Shown here one piece after another: positions 21,286 through 26,039 of a stretch of 33,040 nt of DNA. Origin of the DNA: Actinomycetota bacterium (GTDB taxonomy: Bacteria; Actinomycetota; Aquicultoria; JACQXZ01); contig JACQXZ010000066.1 of assembly GCA_016208465.1 (NCBI GenBank), positions 1 through 33,040 on the forward strand, read 5' to 3'. Under the pieces are notes generated by a model. The model was not told the origin of the DNA, ran no database searches, and was given only the letters and a program-made list of their open reading frames with translations. Each line of letters opens with the position of its first letter. Within the stretch, counting starts at the first letter, position 1. A program made the position numbers and the translations under genes.

Positions 21286-21735
21286 ATGGAACAGATTGTT
21301 TATATAGTCTTGGGATCCCTTTTAGCACTGATAGGCGGTTTCATCAGCCAATACCCTCAAAACCATCTTAACCAAATCAAAGAAGACGAAAGTCTCTTGT
21401 TTCAAGCAGACTGTCTTTTGTTAGATTACTATCCTTTGATCAAGGGGAAGGATAACCACGCCCCGACAGATAATAACACACTAAAATTAAAGGCAAAAGA
21501 AGTCACTTTTCGTGATGATCTTTCCAAAATCGCTATCAGAATCTGTACCAAACGTTATCGAGGTTTAGCAGTAAGGCTAACTAAATTTGCACTCGATAGT
21601 ACTTTCAGAACAGAAGATAATTTGACCTCGCTTACACATGATGTGCAAATGGCAATTAATAAGCCAATGATCAAAAAATATGAAAGCGAAATGAAGGATC
21701 TTCTTAAACTTTTGAAAAGGAGAATAGGAGAATAG
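21286..21735 (+). CDS. Hypothetical protein with N-terminal membrane segment
   Basis: Open frame with IVYIVLGSLLALIGGFI hydrophobic stretch; no recognised family. Confidence 0.5.
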   Translation: MEQIVYIVLGSLLALIGGFISQYPQNHLNQIKEDESLLFQADCLLLDYYPLIKGKDNHAPTDNNTLKLKAKEVTFRDDLSKIAIRICTKRYRGLAVRLTKFALDSTFRTEDNLTSLTHDVQMAINKPMIKKYESEMKDLLKLLKRRIGE

Positions 21736-21750
21736 GAGAATAGGAGAATA
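21719..21750 (+). repeat. 8-bp tandem repeat GGAGAATA x4 spanning the stop codon of the upstream ORF
   Basis: Four perfect consecutive copies read directly. Confidence 0.95.
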
Positions 21751-21817
21751 AAAAATTGGTAAACCAATTAAGACGAAAATCCGACTTCATTTAACACAAA
21801 TAAATAGAAATAAGGGA

Positions 21818-22555
21818 ATAAGGGGACAGCGCCCTTTTAATTGACATACCATATTATGTTGTTTAAAATAACTTTATGCCACGCCAATAAAGAATTGTTA
21901 TCACAAATATAGCACATCACGTAACCCAGCGTGGAAATTATCAACAGCCGGTTTTTGAACACGAAGAAGATTATAAAAAATACTGCGACTGGTTTAAAGA
22001 ATATGCAAAGAGATACTGTATTACAACGTATGCTTATTGTTTAATGAACAACCATGTGCATTTTATTGTATCGCCCAAAACAGAAGAAGGGCTGGCCAGA
22101 CTTTTCAATACGCTTCACATGAGGTATGCCCAGTATATAAATAAAAGACGAAAAGCAACAGGACATTTATGGCAAGGTCGTTTTTTCTCATGTTTATTGG
22201 ATGAACAACATCTGTATCGAGCCATACGATATGTAGAAAGAAATCCCGTCCGGGCAAAGATAGCGCAATACGCATGGACCTATAAGTGGTCAAGCGCAAA
22301 GGAACACACAGGATATGATATAAGTAGTATACCGCTAAATCGAAAATTTGAAATGGAAGCGAATGAATGGAAGGACTACTTAAAAGAGACGGATGATGAA
22401 ATGATAACAGAGATACGGATGAAAACACAAAGAGGACTCGCGATGGGAACGGAACAATTTATACAAAAAATTGAGAGTAAACTGAATCGTTCGTTGGTGT
22501 GTCTAGGCCCCGGACGACCTAAGAAGAAAACCTAAAAAGGGCGCTGTCCCCTTAT
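21818..22555 (+). mobile_element. REP/RAYT-type element: Y1 transposase flanked by perfect 21-bp inverted repeats (21818-21838 and 22535-22555)
   Basis: ataaggggacagcgccctttt / aaaagggcgctgtccccttat exact reverse complements flanking the transposase; right copy begins at the last base of its stop codon. Confidence 0.88.
21876..22535 (+). pseudogene. REP-associated tyrosine (Y1/IS200-like) transposase, interrupted by in-frame TAA at codon 5
   Basis: MPRQ*RIVITNIAHHVTQRGNYQQPVFEHEEDY...YCLMNNHVHFIV...GHLWQGRFFSCLLDEQHLYRAIRYVERNPVRA; TAA at 21888-21890; ORF track starts at 22044. Confidence 0.8.
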
Positions 22556-22760
22556 CGGATGTATAATTTTTTTACATTGTTATTGACAAATATTTTGACA
22601 TAAATTAAACTGAGATTAGGTAACAATTTAAACAAAATATTATAGCTAAAAGAGAACTCTCACAAATAAAACTTCAAAAAGCTCTAAAACAAAAGGTTGT
22701 TCCAAAAGAAAAACACAAACAAATACACGCCAATAGAAATAAGCGAGGTAAAATATAACT

Positions 22761-23534
22761 ATGCTTTCAAGATTTATTCAACAATTGCGAAAAAAGAATA
22801 ATCTGACGCAGGAGTTTTTGGCATCGGAACTCGGCATTTCCCGTCCGACTTATGTCCAAATAGAACAAGGTAAGCGGGAATTAACCATTTCCGAAGCAGA
22901 AAAGCTGGCTTCTGTTTTTGGCATTTCTATTGAAGATTTTTTGGCCGAACAATTACCAAAGCGCGAGATTGTTTTAGAAAAGAAAAAAATAAACAAAAAA
23001 ACAGGCGCTGATACTCAAATTCGCGTAACGCGAAAGAACCTTAACAAATTCAAACAGGTTCTTTTGTATGTTTTGATGAAGGTCGGTGGAAAACCGAATG
23101 TTGGTGAAACTGTGCTTCATAAATTGCTTTACTTCATTGATTTTGATTACTACGAAAAGTTCGAGGAGAATTTAATGGGCGCGACTTACATTAAAAACTA
23201 TCATGGCCCGACATCGGTTGAACTGGGAGCTATTTTGGACGATATGCAAAAAAATAACGAGATAGAGGCGGTAAAAAGTAAATATTTTAATCACTTGCAA
23301 AAAAAGTATTTACCGCTCAAACGAGCCGATCTTAATGTTCTTTCAGCGCGCGATATCGAGCATATTGATGAAGTTTTGGCTCGCTTGTCTGATAAAAACG
23401 CCAAAGAAATAGAACAATACTCTCATGAAGATATTCCGTGGAAGGCAGCAAAAGACGGCCAGCCGCTTTCTTATGAAAGTGTATTTTATCGTGATGAGTG
23501 TTACTCTGTAAGAAACTATGATGATGAACTTTAA
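22761..23534 (+). CDS. XRE-type HTH plus Panacea (DUF4065/SocA-like) domain antitoxin
   Basis: LRKKNNLTQEFLASELGISRPTYVQIEQGKREL HTH; VLLYVLMKVGGKPNVGETVLHKLLYFIDFDYYEKFEENLMGATYIKNYHGPTS Panacea-like. Confidence 0.8.
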   Translation: MLSRFIQQLRKKNNLTQEFLASELGISRPTYVQIEQGKRELTISEAEKLASVFGISIEDFLAEQLPKREIVLEKKKINKKTGADTQIRVTRKNLNKFKQVLLYVLMKVGGKPNVGETVLHKLLYFIDFDYYEKFEENLMGATYIKNYHGPTSVELGAILDDMQKNNEIEAVKSKYFNHLQKKYLPLKRADLNVLSARDIEHIDEVLARLSDKNAKEIEQYSHEDIPWKAAKDGQPLSYESVFYRDECYSVRNYDDEL

Positions 23535-23856
23535 TGAATTGCCGGAATTCGTTAAAGAATTTAAGCGTCTGGCGAAAAAATATAAATCATTACCAAATGA
23601 CCTGAAAAATTTTAAAAGTGTAATCACGGTTGAGCCAACAGGAAATAGCAAACATTTCAATATTATAAAGAAAAGTGAGATATGCACTGTTGTAAAAGCG
23701 CGTTTGTTTTGCAGATATTTAAAGGGATCTTCTTTGAGAATTATTTATGCTTTTCACAACCAAGGCTGTAAAGTTGATTTTATTGAGATATATTTCAAAG
23801 GTAACAAAGAAAATGAAGATCGCGAAAGAATTAAAGAATATTTAAAAAACCTCTAA
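23518..23856 (+). CDS. Putative toxin of the Panacea TA pair, possibly RelE/ParE-like
   Basis: 112 aa, overlaps antitoxin end by 17 bp; basic, short beta-rich C-terminus (SLRIIYAFHNQGCKVDFIEIYFKGNKENED). Confidence 0.55.
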   Translation: MMMNFNELPEFVKEFKRLAKKYKSLPNDLKNFKSVITVEPTGNSKHFNIIKKSEICTVVKARLFCRYLKGSSLRIIYAFHNQGCKVDFIEIYFKGNKENEDRERIKEYLKNL

Positions 23857-25694: not shown

Positions 25695-26021
25695 AAACAA
25701 GCAGATATAAAATCTCAGATAATAAAAATAACTGATTTGGCAGATTATCAGGATGGCTCGGTGATTAGCCGAACACTCATTAATAAAAAAACAGGCACTG
25801 TAACATTTTTTGCCTTCGATGAAGGACAGGGTTTAAGCGAACACACGACGCCGTTTGATGCTATGGTTTATGTTGTTGACGGCGAAGCAGAAATTATTAT
25901 TTCAGGTAAATCGTTCAATTTAAAAGAAGGCGAAATGATTATAATGCCGGCCAATCAGCCGCATTCTTTAAAAGCAGTGAAAAGATTTAAAATGATCCTG
26001 ACAATGATACGTTCCCAATAA
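25686..26021 (+). CDS. Cupin domain protein
   Basis: GQGLSEHTTPFDAMVYVVDGEAEIIISGKSFNLKEGEMIIMPANQPHSLKA. Confidence 0.85.
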   Translation: MDNKQADIKSQIIKITDLADYQDGSVISRTLINKKTGTVTFFAFDEGQGLSEHTTPFDAMVYVVDGEAEIIISGKSFNLKEGEMIIMPANQPHSLKAVKRFKMILTMIRSQ

Positions 26022-26039
26022 AGGGCGCTGTCCCCTTAT
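26020..26039 (+). repeat. Solo copy of the 21-bp transposase-flanking repeat (aaagggcgctgtccccttat)
   Basis: 20-bp match to 22536-22555; no transposase adjacent. Confidence 0.9.

Follow-up and report, generated by a model that had tools for sequence, protein, structure and literature searches.

The two overlapping genes at positions 22,761 to 23,856 of the window (the whole 33,040-nucleotide stretch of actinomycetotal DNA that was analyzed) form, with a probability of about 0.8, a type II toxin-antitoxin module belonging to the PanAT group, in which the toxin is a divergent RNase of the RelE superfamily (BECR fold) and is silenced by an HTH-Panacea protein mostly through that protein's C-terminal tail. 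In the proposed mechanism, the HTH-Panacea protein, encoded by the first gene of a two-gene module and made just before the toxin from the overlapping frame, would bind and silence a 112-aa toxin that appears closest to RelE (PF06296) and HigB2; silencing would most likely be achieved mainly by the acidic conserved tail on the basic active-site face of the toxin, with the Panacea domain serving as a scaffold or sensor and the HTH domain repressing the operon. Toxin freed from this complex would probably enter the ribosomal A site and, with K60/R62, R74 and K94 as active-site residues, probably cut mRNA or another ribosome-associated RNA, so that translation stops.

The panA-type antitoxin gene (22761..23534, forward strand) encodes 257 amino acids arranged as an HTH domain, a variable linker, a Panacea domain and the C-terminal tail, and the gene of its partner, a putative PanT of RelE fold (23518..23856), is read on the same strand in a different frame and encodes 112 amino acids with a pI of 9.6. 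Both open reading frames are where the original prediction placed them, with the predicted overlap of 17 nt (23518..23534, forward strand); the partner frame begins ATGATGATG, where ATG occurs three times in succession (23518, 23521, 23524), and the real overlap could be 17, 14 or 11 nt depending on which of these codons is the start (11 nt for the third, at 23524). Among the best 80 of at least 257 related loci, collected in a search with only the toxin, 75 toxin genes overlap the antitoxin gene, 74 of the 80 by 11 to 17 nt (11 nt in 47 loci, 14 nt in 13 and 17 nt in 14), and the commonest start corresponds to the third ATG. The partner frame is open and is kept in other phyla at up to 77% identity, its differences from relatives fall mostly at third codon positions (e.g., 19/13/48), and dN is approximately 0.14 against a saturated dS; a chance pair of open reading frames is therefore rejected. 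One copy of each gene is present in the genome, which totals 1.75 Mb in 105 contigs.

The reading of the first protein as an XRE-Panacea protein is borne out by two domain matches far above their cut-offs: residues 6-60 (22776..22940, forward strand) are an HTH_3/Cro-C1 DNA-binding domain (Pfam HTH_3, E 1e-16), and residues 119-228 (23115..23444, forward strand) are a Panacea (SocA/DUF4065) domain (Pfam SocA_Panacea, E 6e-17; 62.9 bits versus a cut-off of 25.7), the antitoxin domain of PanAT systems. The AlphaFold2 model of this protein has a pLDDT of 85, with the HTH and Panacea domains modeled confidently and the linker (residues 67-86) and the last residues at low confidence. The HTH domain is naturally missing from six members (L065, L072, L084, L096, L098, L099). 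As a separate observation, antitoxin residues 79-174, in the Panacea region, weakly resemble the DarG antitoxin (NCBIfam, E 0.001; PADLOC, E 6e-5; fold search, 7yk3, E 0.0075), hinting that part of DarG may be Panacea-related.

The presence of the HTH domain suggests that the antitoxin represses its own operon. A candidate promoter, TTGACA-17-TAAACT (22583..22611, forward strand), lies approximately 150 nt upstream of the antitoxin gene, but it is weak, a consensus match only, and such sites are hardly commoner than in shuffled sequences (12 versus 9.5). A search upstream of the antitoxin gene of the window gave no operator palindrome (the best arm is 5 nt), and upstream of its relatives palindromes are in slight excess (6.0 versus 5.5 in shuffled sequences), none of them clearly conserved. 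Farther upstream, an IS200/RAYT-like Y1 transposase gene (21818-22555; PF01797, E 1.5e-8) has perfect inverted repeats of 21 bp on either side (ATAAGGGGACAGCGCCCTTTT), the core of which recurs five times in the genome, and the window has one more copy of it, at 26019-26037. Read from the ATG near 21877, the transposase frame meets an in-frame stop at codon five, so the transposase may be inactive or start later. A short tandem repeat with an 8-nt unit (GGAGAATA) occupies 21714-21751, at the end of a 149-aa open reading frame (21286-21735) with no assigned function.

The original prediction called for a search for the same pair in other genomes and would have lost its footing had the partner not been co-conserved with the antitoxin; the pair is found across many phyla, and a Panacea antitoxin gene lies directly upstream of the toxin gene on the same strand in 80/80 loci (the best 80 of at least 257), although in L019 it is split by a frameshift and in L083 the start of the toxin is uncertain. 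In a second sample (380 genomes of the phylum of a Parcubacteria member, 28 of them with a family match), 24 of 25 strong toxin matches adjoin a Panacea antitoxin, and the twenty-fifth starts 6 nt from the end of its contig. The reverse search of this sample gave 27 Panacea proteins above 210 bits, nearly all of which adjoin the toxin, the exceptions being one orphan (L183) and two that are paired with MazF (L189, L190). No third gene is shared in the flanks of the 80 loci, except among five close Caldilineaceae; antisense "gene families" common to 52 and 28 loci were discarded as reverse-strand shadows of the antitoxin gene. The two genes are a self-contained pair.

At least 257 loci of the partner family were found in 84,980 species genomes, and the best 80 were retained for analysis. 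In the phylum of the window, 17 of 397 genomes have a partner match at E 0.01, of which approximately 15 loci are convincing; two matches, L015 and L017, were set aside as a degraded fragment and a chance hit. The family is scattered over 24 phylum-level groups in a poorly resolved tree, with many members in Patescibacteria and groundwater lineages. In that same poorly resolved tree, the nearest relatives of the window copy are from Armatimonadota, Brocadiaceae and Elusimicrobiota (at most 77% identity), not from its own phylum, which suggests that the partner may have been acquired by horizontal transfer. Plasmid and phage collections contain no relative of the partner at E 0.01, and viral contigs contain one, in which an HTH-less Panacea antitoxin precedes the toxin (L099:2771-3713). 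That contig is prophage-like, the pair being located between replication genes, a tyrosine integrase and a terminase.

The part of the antitoxin that is specific to this toxin is a C-terminal tail of approximately 29 residues, AAKDGQPLSYESVFYRDECYSVRNYDDEL (23445..23531, forward strand; residues 229-257), which falls beyond the Pfam Panacea model, carries the motif FYR....SVR.Y, and is the proposed neutralizing element. The 65 sequences compared all have Y238, V241, R244, S249, V250 and Y253, the tail is kept in the six HTH-less members, and it is acidic (pI 4.1) where the toxin is basic. In the phylum of the window, the tail is present in 9/9 distinct Panacea loci with the toxin (L120 and L129 being counted as one locus) and 0/20 without it. 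In Patescibacteria, the nearest Panacea proteins without the toxin are L189 and L190, which are paired with a MazF/PemK toxin (PF02452, E 1e-22), and the orphan L183, the tail of which ends after FYRNR. Compared with the window protein, the MazF-paired L190 and the RelE-paired L115 have similar identities in the HTH domain (24/62 and 22/62) and the Panacea domain (61/136 and 71/136), whereas the tail of L115 has 11/25 identities and keeps the motif, and that of L190 has 5/29 and does not; the MazF-paired antitoxins also carry approximately 35 further C-terminal residues. The tail thus changes with the kind of adjoining toxin, which suggests that it is what silences the toxin, and from these sequence comparisons we infer that the tail neutralizes its partner. 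Of the antitoxin parts, the tail has the highest distance correlation with the toxin (0.71; partial correlation 0.47), in a set of sequences that are not independent and with tail codons that adjoin the toxin gene, so that linkage alone raises the value; linker distances were too variable for such a correlation.

The alternative that survives best is that neutralization is performed by a three-dimensional epitope of the Panacea core or the HTH domain and that the tail serves stability, proteolysis or sensing. This is a serious, if less favored, possibility: standalone Panacea domains and HTH domains neutralize directly elsewhere, the Panacea core and not a tail acts in some validated PanATs (PMC10440598), and the distances of the Panacea domain likewise follow those of the toxin (0.64 among these non-independent sequences). 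The HTH domain, however, is dispensable in nature and follows the toxin weakly (0.33 in the same set), and where RelE-paired and MazF-paired proteins have diverged to a similar degree in the scaffold, it is in the tail that they differ. If neutralization is by the tail, one antitoxin domain could serve many unrelated toxins, its specificity residing in a short, replaceable terminus that moves along with the toxin gene. A broader reading, which falls a little short of an even bet, is that the HTH-Panacea protein is a conserved sensor and repressor scaffold with an exchangeable C-terminal neutralizing peptide, that FYR....SVR.Y fits one unnamed family of RelE-fold RNases, and that related scaffolds have swapped tail and toxin together (for MazF, or for another unnamed small toxin); if so, Panacea would swap partners through exchange of a cassette at the 3' end of its gene, where tail and toxin lie side by side. 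The literature examined suggests that the tail has not been reported.

Other Panacea arrangements were encountered. At L190:3461-6109, two divergent Panacea modules lie side by side, one with MazF/PemK and one with the RelE-fold toxin. A second HTH-Panacea lineage, with a tail of the form IN..SPENVY (L186:1083-2223, L188:858-1971, L191:1377-2520), overlaps a partner of 137-143 amino acids that has no Pfam family (SGNR.IF...I.VLLVY.K) and is RelE-like by eye; it is possibly a separate uncharacterized pair. HTH-less Panacea proteins at L192:1162-2020 and L156:963-1869 adjoin another small, distant partner of the FPRIWFAVRG type.

The fold of the toxin is predicted with confidence: an AlphaFold2 model built from 79 sequences has a pLDDT of 90.2 and the topology beta-alpha-alpha-beta-beta-beta-beta-alpha, in which the helices, the four-stranded antiparallel sheet and the C-terminal helix of the RelE/ParE (BECR) fold are modeled. 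Foldseek matches to the PDB at ranks 1-24 are all RelE, HigB or YoeB (probability 0.77-1.00), the first being archaeal RelE (1wmi; E 8e-4, TM 0.79 on the target) and the next Vibrio cholerae HigB2; a search of a viral structure library gave nothing significant. By sequence, the partner has no family model in Pfam, NCBIfam or PADLOC, those for RelE included, and direct family scans gave matches to Eaf7, SopA family protein and the like at chance level. What ties the window toxin to RelE is its predicted fold, together with its relatives: L010, a family member, is matched to HigB-2 (E 0.002) along KGKGSQSGIRIIYAYFIEEKRIEFIEIYSK, and searches with the family profile recover L158 (E 2e-6) and L155 (E 1e-6), of which the distant relative L158 alone passes the cut-off of Pfam RelE, PF06296 (29.1 versus 27), and L155 matches below it (E 7e-5, 23.5 bits). 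The window protein has no match to PF06296 and is therefore called a RelE-fold protein of a new family rather than a PF06296 member. In the PDB search, single divergent members such as L010 outperformed the alignment profiles A2 and A4, which yielded only coiled-coil chance matches. L155 and L158 each adjoin a small upstream gene, and that of L155 has a weak ribbon-helix-helix-like match. The suggestion of a poorly described toxin is upheld by the lack of a curated family model (Pfam, NCBIfam, PADLOC), the toxin identity itself being predicted, and the resemblance to RelE/ParE noticed by eye is right at the level of the fold and is narrowed by conserved active-site residues to the RNase side (RelE/HigB2). 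A widespread toxin family that is named in no curated database is now given a predicted fold, a predicted active site and a defined partner.

The predicted active-site stretch (23695..23799, forward strand) contains K60 (23695), R62 (23701), R74 (23737), Y92 (23791) and K94 (23797). K60, C65, R74, F88, I89, Y92 and K94 are invariant in 79/79 sequences, and the position of R62 is R or K in 77/79. Through the alignment of L010, in which the R and K of GIRIIYAY...IYSK align with R64 and K84 of V. cholerae HigB2, residues R74, Y92 and K94 correspond to HigB2 R64, Y82 and K84; K60 or R62 is taken as the equivalent of RelE K54 by position in its strand. Counterparts of the basic catalytic residues of RelE (K54, R61, R81) and HigB (R68, R77, K95) are thus present. 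In HigB-TAC, R68, R77 and K95 have been equated with RelE K54, R61 and R81, and their alanine variants are non-toxic, and HigB2 Y82 is named as the core aromatic residue (PMC9098466); RelE requires R61, R81 and Y87 (PMC12620021). A RelE fold alone is no proof of RNase activity, and some RelE/HigB proteins are non-toxic, such as HigB2 and HigB3 of Mycobacterium tuberculosis (PMC9098466); together with the invariant HigB2-like residues, the modeled fold makes a ribosome-directed RNase toxin, rather than a gyrase-type ParE, the most likely identity of the partner, and its RNase action is a prediction.

An RNase with a target other than A-site mRNA, e.g., tRNA or the anti-Shine-Dalgarno end of 16S rRNA, is unlikely: RelE1 of M. 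tuberculosis, at rank 8 in the fold search, cuts the anti-Shine-Dalgarno region (PMC12620021), but no sequence feature of the partner favors such a target over mRNA, and residues like those of HigB2 typically go with mRNA cleavage that depends on the ribosome. Somewhat less probable still is a ParE-type toxin that keeps the common fold and poisons DNA gyrase instead of cutting RNA. A ParE domain is among the Panacea partners found earlier (PMC8832971), and member L099 has a weak ParE_toxin match (E 0.1); the catalytic residues of the BECR RNases, however, are missing from ParE toxins (PMC11980606) and are invariant here (K60, R74, K94), so that RNase action is the better reading, and the best fold matches are RelE, HigB2 and YoeB. 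That the pair is a regulatory or adaptor pair merely using a RelE-like fold is very improbable, for although eight PanTs assayed earlier were non-toxic in Escherichia coli (PMC8832971), the active-site residues are invariant over many phyla, a basic toxin accompanies an acidic tail, and the two genes have the mobility of a toxin-antitoxin unit with no fixed neighbors.

Among known systems, the proposed RNase toxin and its antitoxin resemble PanAT (Kurata et al. 2022, PMC8832971) in having a Panacea antitoxin beside a small partner with the antitoxin gene first, an HTH domain that is often N-terminal, and a two-gene unit scattered over phyla; they differ in that none of the ten characterized pairs in Table 1 of that paper, the basis of this comparison, has a RelE-fold toxin. 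Panacea with toxins of RelE/ParE fold had been foreseen, by ParE matches and 88 toxin clusters (PMC8832971) and by mention of the RelE/ParE fold (PMC10440598). PanA-Doc of C. doosanense (PMC10440598) likewise has a Panacea scaffold with a toxin-specific C-terminal extension, which is neutralizing there and proposed to be so here, but its Phd-C tail consists of two Phd-like helices facing Doc, whereas here an acidic stretch of FYR....SVR.Y type would contact a RelE fold. The HTH-Panacea proteins paired with MazF/PemK share a related scaffold, and in one genome adjoin a RelE-fold pair, but differ in toxin family and in their longer tail. HigBA2 of V. cholerae is alike in its toxin (HigB2, of the RelE family PF06296), which has a RelE fold with a C-terminal helix and equivalents of R64, Y82 and K84, and in its HTH-containing antitoxin; it is unlike in that HigA2 has no Panacea domain and sequence similarity is only approximately 20%. 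In higBA operons the toxin gene comes first and the antitoxin is a HigA-type HTH protein, whereas here the antitoxin gene comes first and a Panacea domain is added. The phage family phrog_5869 matches 56 of 79 family members (best E 7e-7) but has no function assigned. The toxin is neither a PF06296 member by score nor a ParE, the operon is not a HigBA, and the locus is PanAT-like with a RelE-fold toxin.
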